DNA of 64,000 nt from assembly GCF_020026915.1 (NCBI RefSeq), contig NZ_JAINUY010000001.1, positions 1,302,001 through 1,366,000 of the forward strand. Reading direction: 5' to 3'. The translations under genes were made by a program, and so were the position numbers. Within the stretch, counting starts at the first letter, position 1; every line of letters starts with the position of its first letter. The notes below the pieces were generated by a model. That model was not told the origin of the DNA. It saw only the letters and a list, made by a program, of their open reading frames with translations, and searched no databases. This DNA is from Flavobacterium potami (lineage in GTDB: Bacteria; Bacteroidota; Bacteroidia; Flavobacteriales; Flavobacteriaceae). This document shows positions 12,960 through 46,849 of this stretch, piece after piece.

Positions 12960-15053
12960 ATGAAAAAAATATTCCTTTCCTTATGTCTTTTTGGTGTAAT
13001 TTCTAATGTTTCGAGTCAGGAATTGGCAAATGCTCCAAAGCCTTTTGGACCGCTTCCAACGCAGAAACAAATCGATTGGCAGGAAATGGAATTTTATGCT
13101 TTTGTGCATTTTTCATTAAATACATTTACCAATAAAGAATGGGGATTTGGAGACGAGTCGCCAGAACTTTTTAATCCGTCGCAATTAGACGTTCGTCAAT
13201 GGGCGCGCGTGGTGAAAGAGGCTGGAATGAAAGGAATTATTTTAGTTGCCAAACATCATGACGGATTTTGTTTATGGCCTTCAGCATACACAGAACGTTC
13301 TGTAAAAAATTCTCCTTGGGAAAACGGAAAAGGTGATTTGGTAAAAGAATTGGCTGCAGCTTGTAAAGAATACGATTTAAAATTAGGATTATATCTTTCG
13401 CCTTGGGACAGAAATCATCCGCAGTATGGAAAACCTGAATATGTAACGTATTTCAGAAATCAGTTAAAAGAATTATTGACGAATTACGGAGATGTTTTCG
13501 AAATGTGGTTTGATGGCGCGAACGGCGGCGACGGTTATTATGGAGGCGCAAATGAAACTAGAAAAATCAATTCGCTTACCTATTACAATTGGGATGAAAC
13601 TTATAAATTAATTTACAGTATCGCACCAAAAACACTGGTTTGGGGAGTTGGACCTTCAGAAGCAAGATGGATTGGAAATGAAGAAGGACGTGCAGGAAAA
13701 ACCAATTGGTCATTATTGCGCCAGAAAGATGAATTGGCTGGAAAAGTGCATTATAGCGAATTCACATCTGGGCATGAAGACGGAGAAAAATGGGTTCCTG
13801 GCGAAGCCGATGTTTCGATCAGACCGGGATGGTTTTATCATTCGGTTGAAGATGATAAAGTGCGTTCGCTTGACGAAATGGTCGATATTTATTACGAATC
13901 GATTGGACGTAATGCGACTTTGTTATTAAATCTTCCAGTTGATACAAGAGGTTTGGTTCATGAAAATGATGAAGCAAGATTGAAAGAATTAGTTACCACA
14001 ATCAAAGCCGATTTCAAAACAGAATTATTAAAAGGAACAAAAGTTCAAGCTTCAAATACGAGAGGAAATGATTCTAATTTCGGTCCGCAAAATGTTATTG
14101 ATGGAAATAAAAATACCTATTGGGCAACAGACGATAAAGTAAAACAAGCTACAATCGAATTTACGTTTAAGAAACCAACGGCAATCAATCGAATTTTGCT
14201 TCAAGAATATATTAAGCTTGGACAACGCGTAAAAGCTTTTTCTGTTGAAGCCAATGTAAACGGACAATGGAAAACGATTGCCAATGAAACTACAATTGGT
14301 TACAAAAGAATTTTGCGTGTAGATCGCGTTTTAGCTTCTGCTATTAGAGTTAATATTCTGGATGCGAAAGCGGGATTTGTAATTAGTACAATTGAGGCTT
14401 TTAATGCGCCAACTTTCGTTAAAGAACCACAGATTTCTAGAGATAAAAATGGTTTGATTACCATTAAAACCGAAGATGGAAATGCAGTTTATTATTCGCT
14501 TGACGGAAAAAATCCTTCAGAGAAAAGTACTTTATACAAAGCTCCTTTTGTTTACAATAAAGCGGTAGAAATTAAAGCGATTTCTAGAAATTCAAAAGAG
14601 AAAATCAATAGTGCGGTGAAATCGGCTAAATATGGAATTTCTAAAGAAAAATGGAAAGTGATTTCGATTTCAAGCGGCGACAACAAATCGGTTGAAAGAA
14701 TTATTGACGGAGACGCCAATACCGATTGGGAATTTGGGAATAAAGATAATAAACTTCCTCAGTCGATAATTGTAGACATGGGCGAAGTGCGACCTATTAA
14801 AGGTTTTACTTTTACTCCAAAACAAATAGGAAGCAATTCTAATTTGATTTCGAATTATGAATTTTATGCAAGCGAAGATAACATCACTTGGACGAAACAA
14901 TCGGAGGGAGAATTCTCTAATATCAAGCACAACCCAATTGAACAAATTAAGAATTTTACTGAAGTAAAAGCAAGATTTTTAAGATTTGTAGCAACAGCTG
15001 CTGTAGGAAATGGACAAAGTGTTTCGATTGCCGAAATTGGTATTGTGGAATAA
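12960..15053 (+). CDS. GH29 alpha-L-fucosidase with two F5/8-type C domains
   Basis: Secreted exo-fucosidase of 697 residues with a signal to about residue 19. The GH29 catalytic domain (~25-345) holds FVHFSLNTFTNKEWGFG, the substrate pocket AKHHDGFCLWPS, and the predicted nucleophile Asp185 in EMWFDGANGG. It is followed by a discoidin (F5/8 C, CBM32-like) domain (~350-475), a short chitobiase-type beta domain with VYYSLDGKNPS (~490-550), and a second discoidin domain to the end. This architecture is common in the GH29 group that removes alpha-1,3/1,4-fucose from Lewis-type branches. That specificity is by analogy only. The gene opens the glycan locus and is followed by the nagB-like gene on the same strand. 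Confidence 0.92.
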   Translation: MKKIFLSLCLFGVISNVSSQELANAPKPFGPLPTQKQIDWQEMEFYAFVHFSLNTFTNKEWGFGDESPELFNPSQLDVRQWARVVKEAGMKGIILVAKHHDGFCLWPSAYTERSVKNSPWENGKGDLVKELAAACKEYDLKLGLYLSPWDRNHPQYGKPEYVTYFRNQLKELLTNYGDVFEMWFDGANGGDGYYGGANETRKINSLTYYNWDETYKLIYSIAPKTLVWGVGPSEARWIGNEEGRAGKTNWSLLRQKDELAGKVHYSEFTSGHEDGEKWVPGEADVSIRPGWFYHSVEDDKVRSLDEMVDIYYESIGRNATLLLNLPVDTRGLVHENDEARLKELVTTIKADFKTELLKGTKVQASNTRGNDSNFGPQNVIDGNKNTYWATDDKVKQATIEFTFKKPTAINRILLQEYIKLGQRVKAFSVEANVNGQWKTIANETTIGYKRILRVDRVLASAIRVNILDAKAGFVISTIEAFNAPTFVKEPQISRDKNGLITIKTEDGNAVYYSLDGKNPSEKSTLYKAPFVYNKAVEIKAISRNSKEKINSAVKSAKYGISKEKWKVISISSGDNKSVERIIDGDANTDWEFGNKDNKLPQSIIVDMGEVRPIKGFTFTPKQIGSNSNLISNYEFYASEDNITWTKQSEGEFSNIKHNPIEQIKNFTEVKARFLRFVATAAVGNGQSVSIAEIGIVE

Positions 15054-15195
15054 TTTTCGTTTTTAAATGTTTTAAAAATAGCTCAACATCCTTATTTTGT
15101 CTTTTGCCGAAGCGCAATCGTTATTAGTCGAAAATTTAATAAGAACGGATAATTTAATTCTACTTTTATCTTACTAATTAAATGACAAGCGGCAA

Positions 15196-17109
15196 ATGAT
15201 TAAAGAAGATATAGGTTTTAGAGAAGCAGGAAAATTTGAAGAAACTCGTTTCGAGAAAATTCATAATGTTATTTTCGAATCGTCTCAGGAAGCTTCTTTA
15301 ATGGTAGCTCGCGAAATTGCCAATTTAATTCAGAGAAAAAATGAGCTGAACGAACCTTGTGTTTTAGGTTTGGCTACGGGTTCTTCGCCAATCAAAGTGT
15401 ACGAAGAATTAGTACGAATGCATAAAGAAGAAAGGCTGAGTTTTGCAAACGTGGTTACTTTCAATTTAGATGAATACTATCCGATGGATGAAAATGATAT
15501 TCAGAGTTATTATCATTTTATGCACGAACATTTATTTCATCATGTTGACATTCATCCAGAAAATATAAATATTCCAAACGGGCAGGTAAGTGCCGAGGAA
15601 TTACAGCAATATTGTATCGATTACGAAATGAAAATCAAATCGTACGGCGGTTTGGATTTTCAGCTTTTAGGAATCGGTAGAACAGGTCATATTGGTTTTA
15701 ATGAACCAGGTTCGCACGTAAATTCTGGAACCAGAAGTATTACTTTGGATCATTTGACCCGTATCGATGCGGCTTCTTCTTTTTTAGGAATTGACAACGT
15801 TCCGAGAAAAGCCATTACAATGGGAATTGGAACCGTAAGAAATGCAAAAAGAATCGTTTTACTAGGTTGGGGAATCAGTAAAGCGGGAATCATAAAAAAG
15901 ACAATCGAAGGCGAGGTTTCTTCGCAAGTGCCAGCTACGTATTTACAAGAGCATCACAACACAACATTTGTTCTGGATACAGAGGCTTCGTCAGAATTAA
16001 CGCGAGTAAAAACACCGTGGTTGGTTAAATCTTGTGTTTGGACAGACGAATTAAAGCTAAAAGCGGTCGCTTGGTTAAGTGAGTTAACGAAGAAACCTTT
16101 CCTAAAACTAACGGATAAAGATTATAACGACAACGGAATGTCGAGTCTTTTGACGGAAGAAGGAACTGCATACGATTTGAACATTAAGATGTTTAATAAA
16201 ATGCAGCAAACCATCACGGGTTGGCCGGGTGGAAAACCAAATGCTGACGATACGTACAGACCAGAACGTTCTACACCAGAAAAGAAAAGAATTATCATTT
16301 TCAGTCCGCACCCAGACGATGATGTGATTTCGATGGGAGGAACATTTGACCGTTTGGTAGAACAAGGACATGAAGTTCATGTTGCCTATCAGACTTCTGG
16401 AAACATTGCAGTTTCTAATGAAGAAGCTTTGAAATTTGCAGAGATTTCTAGAGCGTTAAATCCCGATTCTAAAGTTTCTCAGGAGATTATAAATTTCCTA
16501 AAAAACAGAACGGGTACAGAAATCGATTCGCCTGAAGTTAGAAAATTAAAAGGATTGATTAGAAGAAGTGAATCTTTTGGAGCAACACGTTACATCGGTT
16601 TGTCAGATTCTAATGTGCACTTTTTAGATCTTCCGTTTTACGAAACAGGAACGGTTAAAAAGAATAATCTTTCGGATGCAGATGTCGACATTATGTGCGA
16701 CATTATTGAAAGTATAAAACCGCATCAAATTTATGCCGCTGGAGATTTAGCAGATCCGCACGGAACTCATAAAGTCTGTTTAGACAGTTTGTTTGAAGCT
16801 TTAAAAAGATTGAAACAAAAAGACTTTATGAACGATTGCTGGGTTTGGTTATATCGAGGCGCATGGCATGAATGGGAATCGTACCAAATTGACATGGCAG
16901 TACCGATGAGTCCTGACCAGGTTTTAAAGAAACGGCATGCCATTTTTTATCATCAGTCTCAAAAAGACGGAGTAATGTTCCAAGGTGATGATAGCAGGGA
17001 GTTTTGGGTACGAGTTGAAGACAGAAATAGATTGACTGCAGAAAAATATCACAGCTTAGGATTGGCAGATTATTCGGCTATCGAAGCGTTTAAGAGATAT
17101 CACTTTTAG
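15196..17109 (+). CDS. NagB-like glucosamine-6-phosphate deaminase fused to PIG-L/LmbE domain
   Basis: Cytosolic 637-residue fusion with no signal sequence. Residues ~20-285 are a NagB/sugar-isomerase domain with FNLDEYYPM (Asp92) and GIGRTGHIGFNEPG (His165, Glu170). Residues ~365-637 form a PIG-L/LmbE deacetylase-like domain with the metal motif PHPDDD (371-376). NagB converts GlcN6P to fructose-6-phosphate plus ammonia, the final step of GlcNAc use, so it fits a locus that releases GlcNAc. In E. coli NagB the loop reads GNDGH, where the Asp belongs to the catalytic dyad. Here it reads GRTGH, so that Asp is replaced by Thr. Bacteroidota long-form NagB homologues are often annotated as deaminases, but deaminase activity should not be assumed from the name. 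Confidence 0.85.
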   Translation: MIKEDIGFREAGKFEETRFEKIHNVIFESSQEASLMVAREIANLIQRKNELNEPCVLGLATGSSPIKVYEELVRMHKEERLSFANVVTFNLDEYYPMDENDIQSYYHFMHEHLFHHVDIHPENINIPNGQVSAEELQQYCIDYEMKIKSYGGLDFQLLGIGRTGHIGFNEPGSHVNSGTRSITLDHLTRIDAASSFLGIDNVPRKAITMGIGTVRNAKRIVLLGWGISKAGIIKKTIEGEVSSQVPATYLQEHHNTTFVLDTEASSELTRVKTPWLVKSCVWTDELKLKAVAWLSELTKKPFLKLTDKDYNDNGMSSLLTEEGTAYDLNIKMFNKMQQTITGWPGGKPNADDTYRPERSTPEKKRIIIFSPHPDDDVISMGGTFDRLVEQGHEVHVAYQTSGNIAVSNEEALKFAEISRALNPDSKVSQEIINFLKNRTGTEIDSPEVRKLKGLIRRSESFGATRYIGLSDSNVHFLDLPFYETGTVKKNNLSDADVDIMCDIIESIKPHQIYAAGDLADPHGTHKVCLDSLFEALKRLKQKDFMNDCWVWLYRGAWHEWESYQIDMAVPMSPDQVLKKRHAIFYHQSQKDGVMFQGDDSREFWVRVEDRNRLTAEKYHSLGLADYSAIEAFKRYHF

Positions 17110-17206: not shown

Positions 17207-17210
17207 GTTT

Positions 17211-17660: not shown

Positions 17661-18374
17661 CTATATAGAAGAATTCAAAATCTTCTGTTTTACTTCGTCG
17701 ATATAAGATCTTCCGATAACGTATCTAAGTCCTTCAATTTCAATGCTGTTTCCTTCAACAGCATCGATTTTGTCAATGGCAATGGTGTAGGATCTATGGA
17801 TTCTTATAAAATCTCTTTCTGGTAATAAACTCGTAAAATCTGATAAAGTGCTATGAATGATAAACTTTCCAGAAGTGGTGCTGATTTTTAGATAATCTTT
17901 CAAACTTTCAATTACCAAAATTTCGTTCAAGAAAATCTTTTTCATTTTTTTCTTGTCGATTTTTACAAAAATAAAAGGATTCTCCTTACTGTTTTCCTGT
18001 GGAGTTTTAGTGGTATTATTAAGACGTTTGTTAATCTTATTTACCGCTTTCATCAATCTCGGAAACTCAATTGGTTTTACTAAATAATCCAAAACGTCAA
18101 GTTCGTACGTTTCAATCGCAAACTGATCGTAAGCGCTTGTAATAATTAATAAAGGTGGGTTTTCTAAACTTTTGATAAAATTAATACCGTCCAAAACAGG
18201 CATATTGATGTCTAGAAAAATTACATCTATCGTATTGTTCTTTAAGAAATTTAATCCTTCAATAGAATTACTGAAAGTGTTTACCAATTCTAAATCTTCA
18301 ATCTGTTCAATATAATTCTTAATAACGTTTATTGCCAATGGCTCATCATCGATAATTAAACACTTTATTTTCAT
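17661..18374 (-). CDS. LytTR-family response regulator
   Basis: 237 residues from the ATG at 18374; an upstream TTG at 18380 is a less likely start. The receiver domain (~1-120) has the acidic pair DDE and the phospho-acceptor Asp55 in VIFLDINMPVLDG. A LytTR DNA-binding domain (~135-237) contains FVKIDKKKMKKIFLNEIL and RIHRSYTIAIDKID. LytTR regulators bind paired direct repeats. The sensor kinase gene lies 66 bases upstream on the same strand, so the two form an operon. Its position inside the glycan locus, divergent from a GH92 gene, suggests local control of mannosidase and transporter expression. Confidence 0.94.
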   Translation of the reverse strand: MKIKCLIIDDEPLAINVIKNYIEQIEDLELVNTFSNSIEGLNFLKNNTIDVIFLDINMPVLDGINFIKSLENPPLLIITSAYDQFAIETYELDVLDYLVKPIEFPRLMKAVNKINKRLNNTTKTPQENSKENPFIFVKIDKKKMKKIFLNEILVIESLKDYLKISTTSGKFIIHSTLSDFTSLLPERDFIRIHRSYTIAIDKIDAVEGNSIEIEGLRYVIGRSYIDEVKQKILNSSI

Positions 18375-18446
18375 TTGCAAAATATTATTTTAGGCCTGTA
18401 TGTGGTTTTTTGTAGGTATAGTTTTCTAAACTATTAAAAGTGTGGG

Positions 18447-19505
18447 CTATGTGACTTTTATAACTAGTTTAACGACAAAAATATTCTTTTTATTTTTAAA
18501 TGAAAGCTTATAGTCATTTTTATTATATCCTAATTCCAGTCTTTTTTTGACGTTTTCAATACCTATACCACTTGACTTGTTAAAATTATCTTTATGTACG
18601 GTAATTTCAGGCATTGGGTTTGAAATAATGAAATACAGACAATCTCCTTTTACTTTGAAGTTAATATCAATAACCACATTTCCAGTATTTTTGTTTACTC
18701 CGTGTTTAAAAGCATTTTCTACGAAAGTCAGAAGTAAAACCGGAGAGATTTCTTTATCATGAATATCTCCCGAAATATACATGTTGACTTCAAGTCGTTC
18801 TCCGTTTCGAATTCTTTCCAAATCGAGATAATTCTGAATGCACATAATCTCGTTTTCCAAAGTCTGTTTTTTACCTTTTGTTTCATAAAGCATATAACGC
18901 ATTAATTCAGAAAGCTTTAGAACGATTTTTGGAGTTTTATTTGATTTTTCTACAGAAAGCGAATAGATATTATTTAAGGTATTGAAGAAAAAGTGCGGAG
19001 AAATCTGTGATTTCAAAAACAACAATTCTGTTTCTAATTGCGATTTTTCAAGATCGGTTACACGTCTTTGCTCTTGGAGAAAGTCAAATGTTATTTTTAT
19101 GGCCGTGACAAAAGTCATAACATATAATTCACCCATCATCATATCAATTGTATAATTTAGCGTGAGATTGTTTATGGTTTGAGGTCCCTCTGGCCAAACA
19201 TCGTGTGTAATGAACAGATAAGTCAAATTAAATTTTATGACAACCATGACAAAAATGGCAGAAAGTACACTTATTATATATAGGAAGTATTTCTTGCGAT
19301 AAACCAAATGTGGCATCAAGACCAATATATTAAGGTAACATAAAGTCATGTGAATTGGAAAACCGAGAAGAGTAGTTTTTAAGGAGTAAACGTAGTCGTT
19401 AAAATAGCTTCCCCAGCGGAATGTATTAAATACAAAATACGTCAGCCAGAAGTAAGCATGAAAGCGAATTGGTACTCTGTAAAGCTTGCTTGAGTTAAAA
19501 ATCAT
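18447..19505 (-). CDS. LytS/YehU-type sensor histidine kinase
   Basis: 352-residue membrane kinase. About four hydrophobic segments occupy residues ~15-140 with little extracytoplasmic sequence, so any ligand is probably sensed in the membrane. The His_kinase domain follows, with the phospho-accepting His171 in QISPHFFFNTLNNIYSL and the ATP-binding N-box LTFVENAFKHG. The catalytic domain continues to the end with GIGIENVKKRLELGY. It is the partner of the LytTR regulator encoded downstream. It is transcribed divergently from the GH92 gene with a 130-base gap between their start codons. Confidence 0.94.
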   Translation of the reverse strand: MIFNSSKLYRVPIRFHAYFWLTYFVFNTFRWGSYFNDYVYSLKTTLLGFPIHMTLCYLNILVLMPHLVYRKKYFLYIISVLSAIFVMVVIKFNLTYLFITHDVWPEGPQTINNLTLNYTIDMMMGELYVMTFVTAIKITFDFLQEQRRVTDLEKSQLETELLFLKSQISPHFFFNTLNNIYSLSVEKSNKTPKIVLKLSELMRYMLYETKGKKQTLENEIMCIQNYLDLERIRNGERLEVNMYISGDIHDKEISPVLLLTFVENAFKHGVNKNTGNVVIDINFKVKGDCLYFIISNPMPEITVHKDNFNKSSGIGIENVKKRLELGYNKNDYKLSFKNKKNIFVVKLVIKVT

Positions 19506-19635: not shown

Positions 19636-21873
19636 ATGAAGAAAATTACTCTGCTATCTCTTACGGTAATTTTTATTGCAAGTTGCAAAATAAAAGTTGA
19701 TAAAAATCAACATCCACAAAGTTTTGCAACAAATTATGTAGATCCTTTTATAGGTACTGGAGGTCACGGACATACGTATCCTGGCGCAACAGTTCCGTTT
19801 GGGATGTTGCAGGTGAGTCCAGATAATGGAATTTCGAGTTGGGACTGGTGTTCTGGCTATCATTATTCTGACTCTATAGTTTCTGGGTTCAGTCATTTAC
19901 ACTTAAGCGGGACAGGAATCGGTGATTTGGCAGATATTTTATTTATGCCGACAAACAAAAAATTAGACTTAACCGCCAAAGCCGCTTCACGCGATTTCCT
20001 ACCGTATAAATCAAAATACAATCATGTTAACGAAAAAGCAGTACCGGGTTATTACCAAGTTTTTCTTGAAGATCCTAAAATCAATGTAGAATTAACGTCT
20101 ACACAAAGAACCGCATACCATAAGTACACCTATAATAATAACGAAACACAATCTGTTGTGGTCGATTTAGGTTTTGCCATCAATTGGGACAAAGCAACAA
20201 AAACGGCTATTACGGTTGAAGACGCCAATACTATCAGCGGTTACCGTTTCAGTACAGGTTGGGCAAAAAATCAGAAAGTATTTTTTGTAGCGAAGTTTTC
20301 TAAACCAATTACAGAATCTATTATTACTGCTGATAAAAAAGTAGTTTCTGGTAAAAATGCTGAAGGTGAAAACACAGCTCTTCAATTATTCTTCGATGCT
20401 AAAAACTCTAAAGAATTAGGAGTAAAAGTGGCACTTTCTTCTGTTAGTATCGCTAATGCGAAAGATAATCTGGAAGAAAAAAAGGAATTTGAAAAAGTAA
20501 AAACAGATGCTTCTGCTGATTGGAACAAAGCTTTAAGCAAAATTACAGTTGAAACTCCAGTTGATTCTCTAAAAACAATTTTCTACACGGCTTTATACCA
20601 CGCTCAAGTTGCTCCAGTTACTTATAGCGATAAAAACGGACAATTTAGAACGGAAGACGATAAAATTGTTACTTCTAAAAATTATACAGCATATTCTACT
20701 TTATCACTTTGGGATACCTTTAGAGCTGAAAATCCGTTGCTTACAATCTTAGATCCGAATAAAGTTTCAGATATGGTCAATTCGATGTTGGCGTATTATG
20801 AAACTAAAAAAATACTTCCGGTTTGGACATTATATGCCAATGAAACCAATACAATGACAGGATATCATTCGATTCCAGTTATTGCAGATGCTTATTTAAA
20901 AGGTATTAAAGGTTTTGATGCCGAGAAAGCTTTTGAAGCAATGAAAGCAACCATGATGCAAGACGAACGCGGACTAAACTTCTACAAAAAATACGGATAC
21001 ATTCCTTATAACTTATTAGATGAATCGGTTACCATCACTTTAGAATATGCTTACGATGATTGGTGCGTGGCGCAAATGGCGAAAGCTTTAGGAAAACAAG
21101 CTGATTATGAATTTTTCTCTAAACGTGCCAAAGCTTACGAATATTTATTTGATGCCAAATCTGGTTTCATGAGAGGAAAATCAGAAAATGGAAAGTCTTG
21201 GAACGAACCTTTCGATCCAAAACATTCCAACCATAGGGAGCATACCGACTATACCGAAGGAAATGCTTGGCAACACAGTTGGTTTGTACCTCATAATGTA
21301 GACAATTTGATTTCGCTTCACGGTGGAAATGAGATTTTTACCAAACGTTTAGAACAATTATTTACAGAGAGTTCTGAGATTACAGGAGACAATGTTTCAG
21401 CAGATATTTCTGGTCTAATCGGACAATATGCGCACGGAAACGAGCCAAGTCACCACATTACCTATATGTTTAATCACGCTGGTCAGCCTTGGAGAACACA
21501 ATATTGGGTTCGTCATATTTTGGATACACAATATAATACAACAGCAAACGGTCTTAGTGGAAACGAAGATTGCGGACAAATGTCGGCTTGGTATGTATTC
21601 AGTTCAATGGGATTGTACCCAATGAATCCAGCTTCTGGAGAATACGAAATTGGAAGTCCGATTTTCAATAAATCAACTTTAAATCTTCCAAACGGAAAAA
21701 CTTTTGTGATTGAAGCAGAAAATGTTTCTGAGAAGAATTTCTATATCCAATCGGCTACTTTAAACGGAAAAGCATTTAATAAAACAGCCATTTCTCACCA
21801 AGAAATGCTTAAAGGTGGTGTGCTTCATTTTGTAATGGGAGCACAGCCAAACAAAAACTGGGGTCAGAACTAA
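19636..21873 (+). CDS. GH92 alpha-mannosidase lipoprotein
   Basis: 745-residue exo-alpha-mannosidase of the calcium-dependent, inverting GH92 family, which trims mannose from N-glycans. A lipoprotein signal (MKKITLLSLTVIFIASC) anchors it to a membrane. The N-terminal beta domain begins with YVDPFIGTGGHGHTYPGA. The catalytic (alpha/alpha)6 domain has YTEGNAWQHSWFVPH (Glu541, predicted acid) and GNEDCGQMSAWYVFSSMG (Asp645, predicted base); those roles follow from the characterised B. theta enzyme family. It is followed 22 bases later by an SSS transporter, making a trim-and-import pair. Linkage specificity cannot be read off reliably. Confidence 0.94.
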   Translation: MKKITLLSLTVIFIASCKIKVDKNQHPQSFATNYVDPFIGTGGHGHTYPGATVPFGMLQVSPDNGISSWDWCSGYHYSDSIVSGFSHLHLSGTGIGDLADILFMPTNKKLDLTAKAASRDFLPYKSKYNHVNEKAVPGYYQVFLEDPKINVELTSTQRTAYHKYTYNNNETQSVVVDLGFAINWDKATKTAITVEDANTISGYRFSTGWAKNQKVFFVAKFSKPITESIITADKKVVSGKNAEGENTALQLFFDAKNSKELGVKVALSSVSIANAKDNLEEKKEFEKVKTDASADWNKALSKITVETPVDSLKTIFYTALYHAQVAPVTYSDKNGQFRTEDDKIVTSKNYTAYSTLSLWDTFRAENPLLTILDPNKVSDMVNSMLAYYETKKILPVWTLYANETNTMTGYHSIPVIADAYLKGIKGFDAEKAFEAMKATMMQDERGLNFYKKYGYIPYNLLDESVTITLEYAYDDWCVAQMAKALGKQADYEFFSKRAKAYEYLFDAKSGFMRGKSENGKSWNEPFDPKHSNHREHTDYTEGNAWQHSWFVPHNVDNLISLHGGNEIFTKRLEQLFTESSEITGDNVSADISGLIGQYAHGNEPSHHITYMFNHAGQPWRTQYWVRHILDTQYNTTANGLSGNEDCGQMSAWYVFSSMGLYPMNPASGEYEIGSPIFNKSTLNLPNGKTFVIEAENVSEKNFYIQSATLNGKAFNKTAISHQEMLKGGVLHFVMGAQPNKNWGQN

Positions 21874-24096: not shown

Positions 24097-25062
24097 ATGA
24101 GTACTATTCCTTGGCAAGACAGACCCGAAAACAGTAAAGATGTAATGTGGAGATATTCTGAGAATCCAATTATCGACAGATATTCGATTCCTTCATCAAA
24201 CAGTATATTCAATAGTGCAGTTGTACCTTTTGGAGACGGATATGCTGGGGTTTTCAGATGCGATAACAAAGCGGTTCAAATGAATATTTTTGCTGGTTTC
24301 AGTAAAGATGGTATCAATTGGGACATCAATCATGAACCAATCGAGATGAAATCTGGTAACACAGAAATGATCGAATCGGCTTATAAATACGATCCTCGTG
24401 TGGTTTGGATTGAAGACCGTTATTGGATTACTTGGTGTAATGGTTACAACGGACCAACTATCGGAATTGGTTATACTTTCGATTTTAAAGAATTTTTCCA
24501 ATGCGAAAATGCCTTTTTACCATTCAACAGAAATGGAGTTTTATTCCCTCAAAAAATTAACGGTAAATACGCTATGTTAAGCCGTCCAAGTGATAATGGA
24601 CACACGCCATTTGGAGATATCTGGATTAGCTATAGCCCAGATATGAAATATTGGGGAGAACACAGATTGGTTATGAAACCGTCTCCGTTTGAGCAAAGTG
24701 CTTGGCAATGTACGAAAGTGGGAGCAGGACCAATCCCTATTTTAACTAACGAAGGATGGTTAATGATTTACCACGGAGTAATCAATACTTGCAACGGTTT
24801 CCGTTATGCAATGGGTTCAGCGCTTCTAGATGTTGATTCGCCAGATCAAGTAAAATACAGAACACAACCTTATTTATTAGGACCAGCAGAAACTTATGAA
24901 ATGGTTGGAGACGTTCCAAATGTAGTTTTCCCTTGTGCAGCTTTACACGATACTGAAGAAGATAAATTAGCAGTTTATTACGGTGCAGCAGATACTCACG
25001 TAGCAATTGCTTTCGGAAAATTAAGTGAAGTAATTCAGTTTACAAAAGATAATAGTTTATAA
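24097..25062 (+). CDS. GH130 family mannoside phosphorylase (probably Man-GlcNAc phosphorylase)
   Basis: 321-residue five-bladed beta-propeller enzyme without a signal peptide, so cytosolic. GH130 features include [20 protein letters not shown], then [13 protein letters not shown], and the catalytic Asp region [20 protein letters not shown] (Asp99 predicted as proton donor). Near the C-terminus is [21 protein letters not shown]. Many GH130 members phosphorolyse beta-mannosides. One characterised branch splits mannosyl-beta-1,4-GlcNAc from N-glycan cores into mannose-1-phosphate and GlcNAc. The surrounding GH92, GH20, glycosylasparaginase and NagB-like genes make that reaction the most likely here. 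Some GH130 members are hydrolases, so activity remains an inference. Confidence 0.85.
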
Positions 25063-34270: not shown

Positions 34271-34281
34271 GAAGAAAGCCT

Positions 34282-39461: not shown

Positions 39462-42400
39462 ATGATTAAAAACGTACTAAAATTACTGTTGGTCATCTGC
39501 CTTTTCGGGTTCCAAAGCCTACAAGCGCAGACCACAGTAAAAGGAACGATAACAGATGCTGCTAGCGGAATACCGATTCCTGGAGCAAATATTATTGTTA
39601 AAGGAACTAAAACAAGTGCTTCATCAGATTTTGATGGTAAATACAGCATTAGTGTTCCAAATCAATCAGCAGTTTTAGTTTTCACCTATGTAGGATCTGC
39701 TACAAAAGAAGTTGCTGTTGGATCTCAAACTACAATCAACGTAGCTTTAGGTGCAGATACGCAACAATTAGGAGAAGTAGTTGTTACCGCTCTTGGTATT
39801 AAAAGAGAGAAAAAAGCAATTACGTATTCTGCACAAAACGTTTCAGTAGACGAATTATCAGAAGCTAGATCATTAAACGTTGCCAACTCACTTTCTGGTA
39901 AAGTTGCGGGTCTTAACTTCTCTACTACTTCTAATGGTGTTGGTTCTTCTTCTAGAATTACTTTAAGAGGTAACAGATCTCTTAATGGTAACAACCAGCC
40001 TCTTTATGTTGTAGATGGTGTGCCAATTAGTAACGGAACAACAACATCTAATCCTGATATTGATACAGGAGGAACTACACAACCTGATGGTATCTCTAAC
40101 ATTAACCCAGAAGATATTGCTTCGATGACTGTTCTTAAAGGACCTTCTGCAGCAGCTCTTTATGGATCTAGAGCATCAAATGGTGTAATCGTAATTACAA
40201 CTAAATCTGGTAAATCAGGAAAAACTTCAGTTTCGTTATCATCTAACTTTATGGCTTCTTCTGCTTATAACTTGATGAATTTACAAAACGAGTATGGTCA
40301 AGGTACAAACGGAAACTATGTTTCTAACTCAAGTTCAAGCTGGGGTGCACCTTTAGACGGACGTCAGGTTTCTGCGTGGCAATTGGTTCGTAATCCAAAT
40401 TATGCTGGACCAGCTACACAAAGCTATACTGCACAGCCAAACAACGTTATTGATTTCTACAAAACAGGTTATAACTTAGCAAACACTTTGACAGTTACAA
40501 CTGGTAACGAAAAAGCACAAGGTTATTTCTCTTATACAAACACACGTGCTGAAGGTATTGTTGGAGGAAACCAAATGGACAGACATAATCTTAACTTAAG
40601 ATTGACAAGTAAAATTTCAGATAAGTTATCTTTGGATGTAAAAACAAACTACATCGTTCAGGATATCGATAACTTATTGAGAACAGGGGAAGAATCTATC
40701 GGAACGTCAGCTTATTTATTGCCTCGTAGTATTGCTTACAACGATTATAAAGATTTCGAATATTTTGATGCTGCAGGACAAAGACAAGTAAACTATTTTC
40801 TTGACGAAACTGGAGCTCCAGGTGGAAACCCATTCTGGTCTGCTTTAAGAGATGATGCTCGTACAGACAAAAGAAACAGATTTATTGGTTTAGCGTCTCT
40901 TAAATATGAGATCACAAAAACATTAAGCTTACAAGGTAGAGCTGGTTTAGACCAAATGACTAATAAAAACGTGAGAAACAGATATGCAACAAATGCATTC
41001 AATAGTAATATGGGGTCATACAGTGAATCTTATGAAACTGTTAGCGAATTAAACGTTGATGCTTTACTTTCTTACAATGAAAAATTCGGAGATTTTTCTG
41101 TTGGACTTAATGCCGGTGCCAATGCATTGCAACAAAATAGTTCAGCTTTAAATTCTGGTGGTGTATTAAGTAAAAGAAACTTCTTTGCATTGTCTAACGT
41201 TCAGACAGTTCAATCAACATCTACGGCTTCAGAGAAAAGAATCAACTCTGTTTACGGTTTTGGTCAATTGGGTTTCAGAAACTACTTATTCTTAGATGTA
41301 ACAGCTAGAAATGACTGGTCTTCTACATTACCAACAGATTATTTCTACCCATCTTTCGGTTTATCTGCTGTTCTTTCTGATATGTTTACATTACCAGAAG
41401 CAATCAGTTTTGCAAAACTTAGAGCTTCTTATGCAGAAGTTGGTAACGATACAGATCCTTATCAAACACAACAGAGATTTTCATACATCGGAGGAAATGG
41501 TGGTATGTTATACGGACAAAGTACAAAAGCTAATCCAAACTTAAAACCAGAGATTTCTTCTTCTACAGAGTTTGGTGCAGATATTAGATTCTTCAACAAC
41601 CGTTTAGGATTAGATTTTACTTATTTCAATTCATTAACTAAAAACCAAATTTTCTACATCAATACACCTGAGTCTTCAGGATTCTCTAGAGCTGTTGTAA
41701 ATGGTGGAGATATTGAAAATAAAGGTATCGAGTTAACGCTTACAGCAACTCCAATTCAAACAGAAAACTTTACTTGGGATATTACAGCGAACTACGCTTC
41801 TTACAAATCAAAAGTAAAATCTATCTATGATGGAAGAGATGAGTTAGTTCTTGGAGAAGGACGTTTAGTTAGAAGTAAAGTGGTTCAAGGTGGTGAGTAT
41901 GGAGATTTATACATTAAAGGTTTCCAAAGAGGTCTTGATGTAAACACTGGCGAAATGAAAATTCTTGTAAATAGTGCAGGTATTCCTTTGGCAACAAACG
42001 GATTTGATTTCCGCGCTGGAAACTTTAATCCAGATTGGACAGCAGGTTTCAAAAACAACTTCAAATACAAAGATTTCTCTTTAAGCTTCTTGGTTGATTT
42101 CAGAATTGGTGGTGAAGTTATTTCATACACACAAGCGAGACAAGCTGGTTTAGGGGTAAGTGATGTTACTTTAGCAGGAAGAAATGGCGGAATCGTTGTT
42201 GATGCTTGGGTTGAAACTCCTACTGGATTTACTCAAAATACAACAAGTATTACTGCTGAGCAATATTGGACAGCTATTGGACAAAGAACTCCAGTTGCAG
42301 AACCATTTATTTATGATGCTACAAACATCAGATTAAGAGAACTTGTTTTTGGTTATTCATTACCAAAACGTGTATTAGCTAATTCAGGATTTACAAGTAT

Positions 42401-42560
42401 TGACTTCTCTTTAGTGGGTAGAAACTTATTCTTCTTCTTAAACAAAGCTAAATATTTTGATCCAGAAGCAGGAGCAGGAACAGGTAACTTACAAGGTATT
42501 GAATCTTTCAACATTCCTTCAACAAGAGATTACGGAGTAAATGTTAAATTTGGATTTTAA
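39462..42560 (+). CDS. SusC/RagA-family TonB-linked outer membrane receptor
   Basis: Complete 1032-residue importer. After the signal (ending SLQAQ) comes a carboxypeptidase-regulatory-like domain (~24-100, GTITDAASGIPIPGANIIVK). The plug follows with LYVVDGVPISNGTT and MTVLKGPSAAALYGSRASNG, then the 22-strand barrel ending NVKFGF. It works with the SusD lipoprotein encoded 16 bases downstream, powered by TonB. Position after the glycosidase run points to oligosaccharide import from N-glycans. TAAATTTA at 39423-39430 with TTG 17 bases upstream could be a weak -7/-33 pair. Confidence 0.95.
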   Translation: MIKNVLKLLLVICLFGFQSLQAQTTVKGTITDAASGIPIPGANIIVKGTKTSASSDFDGKYSISVPNQSAVLVFTYVGSATKEVAVGSQTTINVALGADTQQLGEVVVTALGIKREKKAITYSAQNVSVDELSEARSLNVANSLSGKVAGLNFSTTSNGVGSSSRITLRGNRSLNGNNQPLYVVDGVPISNGTTTSNPDIDTGGTTQPDGISNINPEDIASMTVLKGPSAAALYGSRASNGVIVITTKSGKSGKTSVSLSSNFMASSAYNLMNLQNEYGQGTNGNYVSNSSSSWGAPLDGRQVSAWQLVRNPNYAGPATQSYTAQPNNVIDFYKTGYNLANTLTVTTGNEKAQGYFSYTNTRAEGIVGGNQMDRHNLNLRLTSKISDKLSLDVKTNYIVQDIDNLLRTGEESIGTSAYLLPRSIAYNDYKDFEYFDAAGQRQVNYFLDETGAPGGNPFWSALRDDARTDKRNRFIGLASLKYEITKTLSLQGRAGLDQMTNKNVRNRYATNAFNSNMGSYSESYETVSELNVDALLSYNEKFGDFSVGLNAGANALQQNSSALNSGGVLSKRNFFALSNVQTVQSTSTASEKRINSVYGFGQLGFRNYLFLDVTARNDWSSTLPTDYFYPSFGLSAVLSDMFTLPEAISFAKLRASYAEVGNDTDPYQTQQRFSYIGGNGGMLYGQSTKANPNLKPEISSSTEFGADIRFFNNRLGLDFTYFNSLTKNQIFYINTPESSGFSRAVVNGGDIENKGIELTLTATPIQTENFTWDITANYASYKSKVKSIYDGRDELVLGEGRLVRSKVVQGGEYGDLYIKGFQRGLDVNTGEMKILVNSAGIPLATNGFDFRAGNFNPDWTAGFKNNFKYKDFSLSFLVDFRIGGEVISYTQARQAGLGVSDVTLAGRNGGIVVDAWVETPTGFTQNTTSITAEQYWTAIGQRTPVAEPFIYDATNIRLRELVFGYSLPKRVLANSGFTSIDFSLVGRNLFFFLNKAKYFDPEAGAGTGNLQGIESFNIPSTRDYGVNVKFGF

Positions 42561-42576: not shown

Positions 42577-44169
42577 ATGAAATATAGTTTTAAAATAAAA
42601 ACATTAGGAGTTGCATTAATGGCAGTTTCGATTTTATCAAGCTGTACGGGCGACTTTGATGAAATAAACAAAGATCCTAATTCGTTGACTGAAGATCAGT
42701 TGGATGCTACATTAGCTGGTCCTGCATTTGCATCTGCATTGTACGCGGGTATTCACAACGGGTCTTACTCATCTCCAGGAGTAGACGATCAAGGTACATG
42801 GGGTATTGCAACAGGTATCTTATCTTCAACTTTTATCCATTACTTAAACTGTGGATATGGAACGGAAAGAAATGCTTTCGTTAACGGATATGAAGGTAGA
42901 GGATGGTTAAGATTTTACACCGTTGCTGCACCAGCTTTGATAAATGCTGTTAAAGCATCTGAAGGAAATGCAGAAGCATTGGCAATACTTAAAATCTGGA
43001 AAGTTTTCATGTACAACCAAATGGTTGATGCTTACGGGCCAATTCCTTACACTGAGGCAGGAAATGGTAAAGAAAGCGTTCCTTACGATAGCGTAGAATT
43101 TATTTACGAAGATTTCTTCAAATTGTTAGATGAGGCTAATGCAACATTGTCTTCAGCTTCTGTAGCTACAGTTGCTTCTCTTTCTCCAAACGATAGAGTG
43201 TATGCAGGAAGTGTTGACAAATGGAGAGTTTTTGGAAACAGTATGAGATTGCGTTTGGCAATGAGAATTTCTGATAAAGATCCTGCAAAAGCAAAAACTC
43301 AAGCGGAAGCTGCTGTAGCTGCAGGAGTGATGCAGACAAACGATCAAAACGCATTCTTTAAAGCAAGTAACATTACTCCAAACAATTTAAACATGATTGT
43401 AAACAGCTGGGGTTATGTAATGACTGCTTCTATGGAGAGTATCTTAGTAGGATACCAAGATCCACGTTTGTCAAAATGGTTTGCACCTATTAGTACAGGA
43501 ACTGGAGTATACAGAGGAAATCCAGTTGGAGGTTTAGAAGATCAATTTGGAACTACTGAATTCTCTAAATTTAATAATGATATCATGGGTAATGGTCCAG
43601 CTAATAATGTTAGCGAAACTAAAAACATCGAAATCTTTATGGCTTCTGAAAACTATTTAACTAGAGCAGAAGGAGCTTTGAATGGATGGAACATGGGCGG
43701 AGATGCTAAAACTTTGTACGAAACAGGTATTAGATTATCTCTTGCACAATGGGGAATCACAGAGGCTGCTACAGTTAATGCTTATATCAATGGGGTAACG
43801 TTACCAACACTACCAAACATTTTAACAGTATATCCAACTTTAGATTTGCAAGATATTCCAGTTAAATTACCTGTTGCTTGGTCTTCATCTGTTGCTAACC
43901 AACGTACACAAATTGCAGTTCAAAAATACTTAGCAATTTTCCCAGAATCTTGGGAAGCTTGGTCAGATTTACGTAGAAGTGATGCTAAAGTAATCTATCC
44001 AATATTAAACACAGACAACCCAGAAGCTGGTGTTGGTAAATCTCTAATGAAGAGAATCATTTATACTACAAATGAGTACTCATCAAACGAAGCAGCTGTT
44101 AAAGACGGTATCGTAAAATTAGGCGGTCCTGATTCAGGTGGAACTAGACTTTGGTGGGACACAAAATAA
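42577..44169 (+). CDS. SusD-like lipoprotein (SusD_like_2 group)
   Basis: 530-residue surface lipoprotein; the signal ends AVSILSSC with the lipidated Cys. DEINKDPNSLTEDQLDATL at the start is typical of the second SusD subgroup (SusD and RagB-like with DP.....). The helical core shows ILKIWKVFMYNQMVDAYGPIPYTEA, and ENYLTRAEGALNGWNMGG near the C-terminus. It captures the glycan for the SusC partner. It differs in subgroup from the SusD at 1103-2500, so the two receptors in this window serve different substrates. Confidence 0.93.
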   Translation: MKYSFKIKTLGVALMAVSILSSCTGDFDEINKDPNSLTEDQLDATLAGPAFASALYAGIHNGSYSSPGVDDQGTWGIATGILSSTFIHYLNCGYGTERNAFVNGYEGRGWLRFYTVAAPALINAVKASEGNAEALAILKIWKVFMYNQMVDAYGPIPYTEAGNGKESVPYDSVEFIYEDFFKLLDEANATLSSASVATVASLSPNDRVYAGSVDKWRVFGNSMRLRLAMRISDKDPAKAKTQAEAAVAAGVMQTNDQNAFFKASNITPNNLNMIVNSWGYVMTASMESILVGYQDPRLSKWFAPISTGTGVYRGNPVGGLEDQFGTTEFSKFNNDIMGNGPANNVSETKNIEIFMASENYLTRAEGALNGWNMGGDAKTLYETGIRLSLAQWGITEAATVNAYINGVTLPTLPNILTVYPTLDLQDIPVKLPVAWSSSVANQRTQIAVQKYLAIFPESWEAWSDLRRSDAKVIYPILNTDNPEAGVGKSLMKRIIYTTNEYSSNEAAVKDGIVKLGGPDSGGTRLWWDTK

Positions 44170-44214
44170 TTAATTTGGTAAAGTAAAAAATCAAACGATT
44201 GGTTACTTGAGCAG

Positions 44215-44241
44215 AAGGAGAGGTAACTCTCCTTTTGTTTT
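44215..44241 (+). terminator. Terminator between susD and the MFS permease gene
   Basis: Perfect 8-bp stem AAGGAGAG (44215-44222) / CTCTCCTT (44227-44234), loop GTAA, then TTGTTTT. It separates the susCD transcript from the permease gene, whose ATG at 44338 lies about 100 bases further on. Confidence 0.85.
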
Positions 44242-44337
44242 ATAAATATGTCAGTAATTGACATCCAAAAAAATCTATTAACAAAGATGATGTACTCCAA
44301 TTCAATCATCAAACCGAAAAAAAAACACAAAATAAAA

Positions 44338-45669
44338 ATGGTTGATACAAATACCACTAACTCCTCACAAACCAAACCAACCTTAATTCCAATATTAATT
44401 ATAGCAAGCTTGTTCTTTATTTTTGGTTTTGTTACCTGGATCAATGGCGCATTGATTCCGTTTATGAAAACTATAAATGAATTAACTTCTGCACAATCAT
44501 TATTGGTTGCATCAGCTTCTTATATTTCATTTGTTGTAATGGCGCTTCCTGCTTCTTATATTTTAGCTAAAATTGGTTATAAAAAAGGAATGTCTTTAGG
44601 ATTATTTATAATGGGATTTGGAGCTTTAATTTTTATTCCCGCAGCCGAAGCCAGAACATATTGGATGTTTCTTACTGGAATTTTTATTCAAGGTGCTGGA
44701 ATGACTTTATTGCAAACAGCATCAAATCCATATATTACGATCTTAGGTCCTATTGAAAGTGCCGCAAAACGAATTTCGATTATGGGAATTTGTAATAAAA
44801 TTGCGGGCGCATTAGGCTCACTTATCTTTGGTTCTATTTTACTCTCAGGAATTGATGAAATTCAAGAAAAACTAAGCAAAGTAAGTATTTCCGAAAAGAA
44901 TAATTTATTAGATAATATGGCAGATAGTGTAGTAGTTCCTTATATCTCAATGGCAGTTGTTTTATTTGTTTTGGGAATTTTGATTCTTAAAGCACCGCTC
45001 CCTAATGTTGAAGCCGCACCGATTGAAGAAGCACAAGAAGGTAAAACAGCCAAAACAAGCATTTTTCAGTTTCCACACCTTTGGCTTGGTGTATTAACGT
45101 TGTTTATGTATGTTGGAGTTGAAGTAATTGCAGGTGACACCATTATTGCATACGGAATTGCATTGGGATTTCCTGCTGCAGATGCCAAATTTTTTACCAC
45201 TTTTACTTTATTAGCGATGGTTGTTACGTATGCCTTAGGAGCCTTTTTGATCCCTAAATATATTACACAGGCTTTAGCTTTAAGAGTAAGTGCGGTTTTA
45301 GGAATTCTATTGTCTTTGTGTATTGTATTTTCTACAGGATTTACTTCTGTTTTATTTGTGGCTGGCTTAGGAATTGCAAATGCTTTGGTATGGCCGGCTG
45401 TATGGCCTCTTACGCTTAACGGCTTAGGAAAATTTACCAAAACAGGTGCAGCATTATTGGTAATGGCAATTTCTGGTGGAGCAGTAATTCCGCCCTTGTA
45501 TGGAAAGTTTGTTGACGGTACAAAAGCAGATCTTATTGCACAGGGAATTAATGAAGCAAACGCAACAGCTTCTGCCTCAACAAAAGGGTATTGGATTTTA
45601 CTTCCGTGTTATATCTTCATCTTATATTACGCAATTGCAGGACATAAAGTAGGATTGAAGAAGAATTAG
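44338..45669 (+). CDS. Sugar MFS permease (FucP/NagP-like)
   Basis: 443 residues from the ATG at 44338, which follows an A-rich leader. An in-frame ATG at 44248 would add 30 mostly polar residues and begins only a few bases after a terminator. Twelve membrane segments are expected. The first, LFFIFGFVTWINGALIPFMK, and the loop GAGMTLLQTASNPYITILGP are characteristic of the FHS (fucose, GlcNAc, galactose/glucose) proton-symporter group. In this locus it would import a freed monosaccharide, GlcNAc or L-fucose being most likely. No fucose-catabolic genes are in the window, which slightly favours GlcNAc. Confidence 0.92.
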   Translation: MVDTNTTNSSQTKPTLIPILIIASLFFIFGFVTWINGALIPFMKTINELTSAQSLLVASASYISFVVMALPASYILAKIGYKKGMSLGLFIMGFGALIFIPAAEARTYWMFLTGIFIQGAGMTLLQTASNPYITILGPIESAAKRISIMGICNKIAGALGSLIFGSILLSGIDEIQEKLSKVSISEKNNLLDNMADSVVVPYISMAVVLFVLGILILKAPLPNVEAAPIEEAQEGKTAKTSIFQFPHLWLGVLTLFMYVGVEVIAGDTIIAYGIALGFPAADAKFFTTFTLLAMVVTYALGAFLIPKYITQALALRVSAVLGILLSLCIVFSTGFTSVLFVAGLGIANALVWPAVWPLTLNGLGKFTKTGAALLVMAISGGAVIPPLYGKFVDGTKADLIAQGINEANATASASTKGYWILLPCYIFILYYAIAGHKVGLKKN

Positions 45670-45777
45670 ATGAAAGATGAAAGATGAAAGAAAATAGAAA
45701 ATAGAGGATAGACTTTAGTCTTTAAGATGTATTTAGAAATTAAAAATTTATTTTCTCTCCTCTATTTTCTTTCCTCT
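45668..45777. repeat. GATGAAA tandem tract and inverted A/G-rich repeat
   Basis: Three tandem GATGAAA units start just after the permease stop. AAAATAGAGGA (45698-45708 region) is mirrored by TCTCCTCTATTTTCTTTCC (45755-45773), enclosing a small AGACTTTAGTCT hairpin (45710-45721). It could form a terminator-like fold before the BNR gene. Confidence 0.5.
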
Positions 45778-45802
45778 TATAAAAAAACAAAAAAAGAATA
45801 AA

Positions 45803-46849
45803 ATGATTTTAAAAACAAAATATACTGTTACGGCTGTACTAGCTATTTTTCTATTCTCTAATGGAATAAAAGCGCAGACCAAAGCGGTAAATATAGAAAG
45901 CAGTTATATTGCAGATCCGCCTGTGACAACAAATAGTCATGCATCTACTTTAGTAGAACATAAACCAAATGAGATTTTGGCAGCTTGGTTTGGTGGTAAG
46001 TATGAAGGAGCAAAAGATGTTGGAATTTATATTGCAGCTTATAAAGATAAAAAGTGGTCAAATCCAAAAGAATTGATTCAACCTTTAATCAAAAACGGAG
46101 ATACACTTCCATGTTGGAATCCAGTACTTTTTAAAAGTAAAAGCAACAATTTGTATTTGTTTTATAAAATTGGAAAAAATCCGAGAGAATGGTTTGGCGC
46201 TATGATTGTTTCAAAAGACAATGGAACAACCTGGGGAGAAACAAAATATCTTCCAGACGGAATTTTAGGTCCAATTCGAAATAAACCAATTGAAACTAAG
46301 CCAGGTATAATTTTATGCGGAAGCAGTACAGAAAGTGTAAATACAGATGAATGGAGAGTACATGTAGAAGAATATAATGAAGCAACAGATTCTTGGAACA
46401 AAATTGCGGTAGAAAACAACAAAAATTTTGATGTAATACAGCCAACATTCTTAGTGCATAGTGCCAGCGATATTCAGATGTTGTCTCGAAGCAAGCATAA
46501 CAGAATTGTTTCCAGCTGGTCAGGAGATAATGGAAAAAGCTGGATTAGAACCAATACTATAAACGTGGTCAATTCGAATTCTGGTATTGATGCTTTAACA
46601 ATCAATAAAAATCTTTTTTTACTCGTAAACAATCCGCTTCCAATTGGAAAAGACTGGTTTAACGGACGAAATATTTTAGATGTTGAATATTCTAAAGATG
46701 GTTTAAGCTGGACTAAATTATTCGATCTGGAAAAAGAGGAAAAAGGAGAATTCAGCTATCCTGCCATCATTCAAACGACAGATAAAAAAATACATGTTTT
46801 ATATACTTACGATCGAAAATATATTAAACACACGTCATTTGATTTATAA
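45803..46849 (+). CDS. BNR_2 (sialidase-like) beta-propeller protein
   Basis: 348-residue secreted propeller with a signal to ~residue 24. Asp-box repeats are visible at SKDNGTTW (137-144) and SGDNGKSW (240-247). The conserved blocks HASTLVEHKPNEILAAWFGG, CWNPVLFK, GPIRNKP, IQPT and NSNSGIDAL are those of the BNR_2 family found in bacteria and plants and commonly annotated as sialidase. The GH33 hallmark FRIP motif near the N-terminus is absent, so sialidase activity is doubtful. Being placed at the end of the glycan locus it probably acts on a glycan, but the reaction is unknown. Confidence 0.8.
   Translation: MILKTKYTVTAVLAIFLFSNGIKAQTKAVNIESSYIADPPVTTNSHASTLVEHKPNEILAAWFGGKYEGAKDVGIYIAAYKDKKWSNPKELIQPLIKNGDTLPCWNPVLFKSKSNNLYLFYKIGKNPREWFGAMIVSKDNGTTWGETKYLPDGILGPIRNKPIETKPGIILCGSSTESVNTDEWRVHVEEYNEATDSWNKIAVENNKNFDVIQPTFLVHSASDIQMLSRSKHNRIVSSWSGDNGKSWIRTNTINVVNSNSGIDALTINKNLFLLVNNPLPIGKDWFNGRNILDVEYSKDGLSWTKLFDLEKEEKGEFSYPAIIQTTDKKIHVLYTYDRKYIKHTSFDL

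Follow-up and report, generated by a model that had tools for sequence, protein, structure and literature searches.

Which substrate is served by a flavobacterial gene block that combines fucosidases, mannosidases, a mannoside phosphorylase and a glycosylasparaginase with SusC and SusD genes? The block occupies positions 12960-46849 of a 64,000-nucleotide stretch of Flavobacterium potami DNA (C26:1302001-1366000 in our numbering; hereafter the window), which belongs to a genome of 5.69 Mb. A sequence-only reading of the window had taken the block for a plant-type N-glycan degradation locus. Open reading frames (ORFs) and Pfam matches place every enzyme that it named where it had put them, and its limits of the block fit the ORFs 12960..15053 and 45803..46849. 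We propose, with moderate confidence in the account as a whole, that the block is a single-locus N-glycan utilisation system, most likely for xylosylated, core alpha1,3-fucosylated (plant-type) N-glycans. Papers are cited by their PMC numbers, on the basis of excerpts.

Hallmarks of N-glycan degradation

By Pfam, the block encodes two proteins of glycoside hydrolase (GH) family 29, two of GH92, one each of GH20, GH35, GH130 and Asparaginase_2, a GH3 protein with a PA14 domain, a NagB domain fused to PIG-L, SusC, SusD, and transporters of the SSS and MFS families. Missing from the earlier inventory were a CBM9_1 protein, a GHL10/DUF4015-like TIM-barrel protein (termed GHL here), a BNR_2 protein, a LytTR regulator with a LytS-type kinase, and an M28 peptidase. 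With its SusC/SusD pair, clustered carbohydrate-active enzymes and regulator, the block qualifies as a polysaccharide utilization locus of Bacteroidota.

What marks the substrate as an N-glycan? The GH130 protein (24097..25062; plus strand, like every feature below unless noted), a predicted phosphorylase of mannose (Man)-beta1,4-N-acetylglucosamine (GlcNAc)(2), aligns over its full length (residues 4-320) with Uhgb_MP (4udg, 511 bits) and by sequence is of the Uhgb_MP type that identifies N-glycan loci. No signal peptide is seen in it; signal peptides and lipoboxes were called throughout by a simple pattern script, not by a trained predictor. Uhgb_MP is active on Man-beta1,4-chitobiose (PMC8950772). 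The glycosylasparaginase (AGA; 27326..28348), which has a Tat-like N-terminus, scores 420 bits against the Elizabethkingia enzyme (3ljq/1p4k), compared with 118 bits against the best isoaspartyl peptidase. Structure chains that start at the beta subunit align from Thr194, which corresponds to beta-chain residue 1 and places the threonine nucleophile of this Ntn hydrolase at the autocleavage site. The substrate of AGA must carry a single amino acid (PMC6960285), and this requirement would give a natural place to the M28 peptidase encoded just outside the block (47023..47976), a possible glycopeptide trimmer. The similarities of GH130 and AGA, together with PNGase F, GH18, GH85 and GH163 at the loci of relatives, strongly support the earlier proposal of N-glycan degradation, and the genomic evidence makes N-glycan utilisation by the locus nearly certain.

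Could the genes instead form a chance cluster or a locus for a polysaccharide unrelated to protein glycans, such as xyloglucan or mucilage? As this explanation would have it, GH3, GH35, GH29 and GH20 are shared with loci of other types, but to our knowledge neither AGA nor Uhgb_MP-type GH130 has a role in polysaccharide loci. Gene order is moreover kept across genera, and the presence of PNGase F, GH18, GH85 and GH163 at the loci of relatives argues so strongly against the explanation that we regard it as extremely improbable. A chitin or mucin locus was ruled out, as Pfam scans find no GH18 in the block and AGA and GH130 would be left unexplained; a yeast alpha-mannan locus was ruled out because the same scans find neither GH76 nor GH99 there.

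A constant core with exchanged release enzymes

How is the glycan released from the protein? The comparison with relatives is anchored on GHL (26112..27230), which has a lipobox-like signal and which 68 of 299 family genomes encode, counting the window's own. Its surroundings (up to 40 kb, that is, 20 kb per side or to the contig end) were taken from 30 of the 67 relatives, hand-picked across the identity range rather than at random. Genes beyond 20 kb on either side of GHL can thus be missed, and BLAST matches covering less than 20-25% of the query were discarded, both here and in the comparison of GH3 loci below. Twenty syntenic relatives were kept, and G252 and nine distant genomes, which lack the block around GHL, were left out.

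The CBM9_1-like protein (25070..26137), which has a signal-like N-terminus, accompanies GHL in all 20 relatives. GH130 and the SSS-family symporter (21896..23773), a predicted importer of the trimmed core oligosaccharide, are present in 19, GH20 (28553..30865, a beta-N-acetylhexosaminidase) in 18, and close homologues of the first GH92 protein (GH92a) and the second (GH92b) in 17 each. The regulatory pair on the minus strand, a LytTR response regulator (17661..18380) and a LytS-type sensor kinase (18447..19505), lies near the block in 14 relatives, as does AGA, followed by a close GH29-A (9), GH29-B (4) and NagB (4). Most of the window's gene order recurs in G127, which belongs to the same genus, in G159, where a GH2 gene is found and no GH35, and in G228, but there without NagB. 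GH125 belongs to the locus in three of the 20 relatives and lies outside the block in the window's genome.

Around this core the release step is exchanged, being represented by GH18, PNGase F, GH85 or none of them. A GH18 gene sits between CBM9 and GHL in 10 of the 20 relatives, at the place where the two window ORFs overlap by 26 nt, and in an eleventh relative, G133, it lies at another place in the locus; this locus GH18 matches the EndoS barrel model just below its cut-off. Strong PNGase F matches (>150 bits) occur in nine relatives, all within ~25 kb of GHL, and the PNGase F of G127 carries a PNGase_F-II_N domain; seven other relatives have weaker PNGase F-like matches elsewhere. GH163, a family with one member described as an endo-enzyme that cleaves antennae (PMC10154615), is encoded at most 26 kb from GHL in seven relatives, and GH85 is in the locus of one, G248. 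Locus GH18, strong PNGase F and GH85 are all lacking in 7 of 21 genomes, the window's included, although G203 among these has GH163. On the GHL tree, the observed distribution needs at least five changes for GH18, five for PNGase F, four for GH163, four for GH3 and three for AGA.

The same pattern extends through the genus. GHL is present in 37 of 199 Flavobacterium genomes (38 before G348, a match of 37% over 67 residues, was dropped), nine of which have strong PNGase F, six the locus-type GH18 and 25 neither. All six GH18 genes adjoin GHL, and in eight of the nine genomes having both, strong PNGase F lies on the GHL contig at a distance of at most 42 kb. By Fisher tests uncorrected for kinship, GH18 is associated with GHL (6/37 versus 1/162, p 0.0002), and PNGase F shows rather the reverse (9/37 versus 71/162, p 0.04). 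PNGase F of any strength above the family cut-off occurs in 16 of the 21 locus genomes and in 102 of the 199 Flavobacterium genomes.

In the window's genome itself, no match to PNGase F, GH85, GH163 or PNGase A was found (PNGase A is likewise absent from all 26 genomes searched), and Pfam scans detect no GH18, GH85 or PNGase at the locus. The earlier statement that neither GH18 nor GH85 was seen thus holds for the block; genome-wide, GH85 is absent and GH18 occurs in three proteins elsewhere, of 364 aa, of 544 aa with CBM6 and type IX secretion system (T9SS) domains, and of 1578 aa with two GH18 stretches. The conclusion once drawn from this absence, a plant glycan and release from the asparagine side, is not supported by this argument. 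In G127, of the same genus, the corresponding locus includes both GH18 and PNGase F-II. The missing GH18 and GH85 therefore reflect a difference between lineages and are no sign of the substrate; the argument is further weakened because release enzymes come and go among relatives that share the same core.

An Asn-side route is nevertheless plausible, because AGA is present and the known release families are missing, although the releasing enzyme may instead be a distant GH18 or GHL itself. Release by the 364 aa protein or by the 544 aa GH18-CBM6-T9SS protein would require no Asn-side route at all. The GH18 proteins elsewhere could act on N-glycans, which counts against our account, and the 364 aa protein, the product of a lone gene at C26:345157, shares 35% identity with the GH18 encoded in the G127 locus. 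However, no N-glycan genes are among the ORFs (≥150 aa) read in ~4 kb around the 364 aa and 544 aa genes, the third protein is the large double-GH18 one, and the locus-type GH18 adjoins GHL in every Flavobacterium genome that has both. We therefore consider release by a distant GH18 unlikely. Release probably proceeds via exo-trimming, peptidases and AGA, or via the constant CBM9-GHL pair.

Two observations on the relatives stand apart from the release step. The G133 locus (L054) has two CBM9 and two GH130 genes in tandem. Eight relatives (L050:5158-12964, L061:8409-16324 and six more) carry a block of DUF1501, PSCyt1/DUF1549/DUF1553 and DUF2231/PSCyt1 genes in or beside the locus, and cytochrome genes of planctomycete type would not be expected beside a glycan locus.

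Evidence for a plant-type substrate

Do the enzymes address the decorations of plant glycans? A plant-type target bearing xylose, core alpha1,3-fucose and Lewis a is likely from sequence comparison. The GH3 protein with its PA14 insert (36538..39198), a predicted beta-xylosidase, has two beta-xylosidases as its nearest solved relatives (607 and 603 bits), and the next match scores 497 bits. The structure 7ZB3 is assigned to Thermotoga maritima in a table of PMC11071339. The earlier assignment of GH3 to xylose agrees with this kinship, but nothing in these comparisons separates a beta1,2-xylosidase from other GH3 enzymes.

The genes around GH3 were compared in loci from a GH3-alignment scan of named genomes, in which the best 80 of 131 loci were kept with flanks of up to 10 kb; at this flank length, genes far from GH3 (AGA, GHL, M28) are undercounted. 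Sixty-five of the 80 loci come from records titled Flavobacterium, and several species names refer to plants or roots. Flavobacterium johnsoniae strain CI04 also possesses the locus (L109). GH92b is encoded directly upstream of GH3 in 73 loci, and GH92b, GH29-A and GH20 are each in the flanks of 75. In the window, the GH92b alpha-mannosidase (nearest solved match 7zgm, 364 bits) is listed as the ORF 34237..36525, with a likely start at the ATG near 34282, uncut orthologues being 735-756 aa long; the second GH29 (GH29-A, not of the GH29-B type; 32786..34270) is predicted to act on core alpha1,3-fucose. BNR_2 (66), SusC (65), AGA (55) and M28 (51) follow in frequency. GH35 is found in 36 loci and GH2 (>40% identity) in 34, never both together, and 10 loci have neither. 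Such mutual exclusion fits one shared role on antennary galactose (Gal), and the GH35 beta-galactosidase of the window (30878..32728) is predicted to remove antennary beta1,3-Gal. In Bacteroides massiliensis, a GH2 beta1,3-galactosidase is encoded beside GH3 (PMC9522356).

Eight of the 80 GH3 loci encode PNGase F-II, on the downstream side of GH3 and SusCD; in seven of the eight the SusCD pair is a different one, and one of the eight, L130, is cut by a contig end. Two further GH3 loci carry another PNGase F. Core alpha1,3-fucose is accepted by F-II and group 2 PNGases (PMC9522356), and the eight F-II loci therefore suggest plant or insect glycans.

The fucosidases and GH92a add to this picture. 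PF01120 (GH29) has exactly two matches in the whole genome, both inside the block. The first, a GH29-B type alpha-L-fucosidase (12960..15053) with galactose-binding-like and C-terminal F5/8C (CBM32-like) domains, matches 5k9h best and is aligned over residues 27-696 with 8ayr, which we take to be AmGH29D; it is predicted to be a Lewis a/x alpha1,3/4-fucosidase. AmGH29D acts on Lewis a and x (PMC10067855). GH92a (19636..21873), which has a lipobox-like signal by the pattern script and is a predicted alpha1,3-mannosidase, scores 649 bits against 7ZGM, the plant-N-glycan alpha1,3-mannosidase of Bacteroides massiliensis (PMC9522356). By a hand count on the printed alignment (offset 29), four of the six named +1-subsite positions of 7ZGM are identical (W178, W209, H530 and E532 in 7ZGM numbering), with W for Y72 and H for S533; 6f8z is without the 7ZGM-type H530 and E532 that GH92a keeps. 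PNGase F-II in the GH3 loci and the likenesses of GH29-B to AmGH29D and of GH92a to 7ZGM thus support, without proving, the plant type proposed earlier.

Alternatively, the block may be a general N-glycan locus or one for glycans of animal, insect or fungal type, in which GH3 would remove another beta-linked cap (e.g. beta-glucose) or be a broad beta-xylosidase. Several findings weigh against our account or favour this alternative. Within the fetched stretches, a close GH3 is present in only 4 of the 20 syntenic relatives (G127, G159, G228 and G250) and absent from the other 16, so that the core does not need xylose removal; a close GH35 is seen in one, and AGA is unseen in six. The NCBIfam models do not separate the GH3 protein (betaxyl_Flavo 591 bits, bglX 581 bits, both below cut-off). 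The nearest solved relative of GH29-A, 6gn6, is weak at 181 bits, and that of GH92a is 6f8z at 666 bits, slightly above 7ZGM. Loci that lack GH3 can likewise have the 7ZGM-like Glu in GH92a, and in G159 Lys takes its place despite GH3; because this Glu does not track GH3, it is not diagnostic of xylose. Among the 80 GH3 loci, L160, L161 and L169 have neither GH92b nor GH29-A, L167 and L168 lack GH92b, and L130 (at the contig end) and L172 lack GH29-A. Some GH3 loci belong to genera whose species names sound marine, and insect glycans also bear core alpha1,3-fucose (PMC9522356). Nevertheless, the fixed position of GH92b directly before GH3, the nearly constant flanking GH29-A, the clear lead of solved beta-xylosidases among the GH3 matches, the Lewis a/x-type GH29-B with GH35, which suit plant antennae, and a block without GH76, GH99 or a FRIP sialidase speak against a general-type locus. 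We rate this alternative as possible but less probable than a plant-type locus.

Does the BNR_2 protein (45803..46849) point to sialylated glycans? Its model (30 sequences, mean pLDDT 83.0) is a sialidase-fold propeller that superimposes on NanI with a Z score of 32.3 (308 residues aligned, root-mean-square deviation (rmsd) 2.7), and a sequence search against solved structures returned nothing below E 0.1. The FRIP motif with the first Arg of the triad, sought as [FYW]R[IVL]P, is found in none of the 30 aligned homologues, the window's included, so the protein does not qualify as GH33. The earlier remark that no GH33 with FRIP is present is thus literally true, although a sialidase-fold gene nonetheless lies in the block. 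Because it has no FRIP motif despite its fold, it should not be called a sialidase, and it was rejected as a sign of sialylated glycans. The minus strand beside the block (window 52464-56225) encodes a TonB-plug protein (53832) and, at 52464, a protein of 444 aa that matches no Pfam family.

The CBM9-GHL pair

What is the role of the one unit that never varies? GHL exceeds the cut-off of PF02638 (31.2 bits in the window and 33.3 bits in G127, cut-off 27.9), which, with invariant pocket equivalents, places it in GHL10; it scores higher still against DUF4015 (35.0, cut-off 27). A sequence search against solved structures gave nothing below E 0.1. Its model (29 sequences, mean pLDDT 81.6) matches the GHL10 domain of Cwp19 best (Z 24.9, rmsd 3.1, 279 residues aligned, 18-19% identity), followed by GH42 (Z 24.8, rmsd 2.8, 294 aligned) and PgaB (Z 23.3, rmsd 3.6, 301 aligned). 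With so many TIM barrels near in Z, the fold alone does not fix the family. Cwp19 is reported to be a lytic transglycosylase of peptidoglycan (PMC6016235) with the pocket residues Asp196, Tyr197, Arg132, Tyr297, Gly328 and Trp36 (PMC5765458). GHL residues D172, Y173, R107, Y290, G322 and W46, invariant in the 29 sequences, are their plausible equivalents, as assigned by strand position and not by a printed structural alignment. GHL thus shares with Cwp19 the fold and plausible pocket residues, but Cwp19 has a peptidoglycan substrate and cell-wall-binding repeats.

Could this constant unit of Flavobacteriaceae N-glycan loci, a CBM9-like protein with a GHL10-type lipoprotein, be the missing release enzyme? 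It would then act on the GlcNAc-GlcNAc (chitobiose) core or the GlcNAc-Asn stub as a novel type of enzyme distinct from GH18, GH85 and PNGase that was derived by co-option of a peptidoglycan-type glycosidase. Its retention in all 20 relatives (for GHL, by definition of the set), while GH18 and PNGase F come and go repeatedly, speaks for such a role, as do the Cwp19-like fold, the invariant pocket equivalents and the lipobox-like signal. However, 14 of the 21 genomes have GH18, PNGase F or GH85 in addition to GHL, the GH42 and PgaB folds are within ~1.6 Z of that of Cwp19, and the 29-sequence alignment has no conserved acidic residue immediately after strand 7. In addition, five fetched genomes (G004, G131, G077, G154 and G196) hold CBM9-GHL pairs that are ~40% identical and have no N-glycan genes around them. 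In G077, G154 and G196 (L077-L082), the neighbours are presumably genes of a trp operon or of tryptophan synthesis, which they resemble, and a pair beside trp-like genes hints at a housekeeping role. We therefore regard a releasing CBM9-GHL pair as rather improbable. If it were true, the pair would let strains without locus GH18, PNGase F or GH85 live on plant N-glycans.

Proposed pathway

For the plant-type N-glycan system that we favour, we infer linkage specificities, order of action, location, transport roles and induction. Glycopeptides would enter through the SusC-like TonB-dependent transporter (39462..42560) and the SusD-like lipoprotein (42577..44169) and be trimmed from the outside by putatively periplasmic and lipoprotein enzymes. 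GH29-B would remove Lewis a fucose, GH35 beta1,3-Gal and GH20 GlcNAc; GH92a would then take alpha1,3-Man, GH3 beta1,2-xylose and GH29-A core fucose, and alpha1,6-Man may be removed by GH92b or by the GH125 of the genome. The glycan would be freed last, since PNGase F, PNGase A, GH85 and GH163 were not found in the genome, nor GH18 at the locus: M28-like peptidases would trim the peptide to Asn, and AGA would cut GlcNAc-Asn, possibly with assistance of the CBM9-GHL pair at the GlcNAc-GlcNAc core. Man-GlcNAc(2) would be imported by the SSS porter and split by GH130 through phosphorolysis. GlcNAc and fucose would enter via the MFS transporter (44248..45669), which falls into the NagP/FucP/GluP group (NagP 401 bits, below cut-off; gluP 272 bits, above cut-off). 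The NagB-like glucosamine-6-phosphate deaminase fused to a PIG-L deacetylase domain (15196..17109; PRK02122, 1057 bits; no signal peptide seen) would feed glycolysis.

Comparison with known systems and significance

Plant N-glycan degradation is already known from Bacteroides massiliensis and Xanthomonas, and the N-glycan genes of Xanthomonas campestris reportedly form a single cluster, going by the title of the original paper. The described part of the Bacteroides massiliensis system (B035DRAFT loci; PMC9522356) shares with the block a GH92 alpha1,3-mannosidase, GH3, GH29, a beta-galactosidase and SusCD, and in other Bacteroides, GH130 is among the neighbours of group 2 PNGases, a further likeness (PMC9522356). 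However, the Bacteroides massiliensis genes are distributed among several loci, and a group 2 PNGase performs the release (PMC9522356), whereas here one block, in a genome without PNGase F, includes AGA, the CBM9-GHL pair and a LytS/LytTR regulator. The Xanthomonas campestris cluster likewise has a GH92 that acts on the core alpha1,3-mannose in plant N-glycans (PMC10154615). Elizabethkingia meningoseptica, with PNGase F, F-II, Endo F, AGA and cFase I, has the same AGA family and a PNGase F-II as in G127, but its PNGases and Endo F release the glycan, and the window's genome is without PNGase F, PNGase A, GH85 and GH163. In the 6'FN-Asn pathway of Lactobacillus casei, a glycosylasparaginase likewise acts on GlcNAc-Asn after fucose removal; as far as the excerpt describes it, this pathway is intracellular and handles the stub only, and its AsnA2 is 28% identical to the Elizabethkingia enzyme (PMC6960285). 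No comparable Flavobacterium N-glycan locus appears in the titles or abstract openings of the open-access literature searched.

The comparison of relatives shows a constant core with exchanged release enzymes and points to the CBM9-GHL pair as an uncharacterised, testable unit. If our account is right, the locus is a source of a candidate beta1,2-xylosidase, a core fucosidase and a xylose-tolerant mannosidase for trimming allergenic plant glycans, and for some flavobacteria a single compact locus handles the digestion of plant N-glycans.

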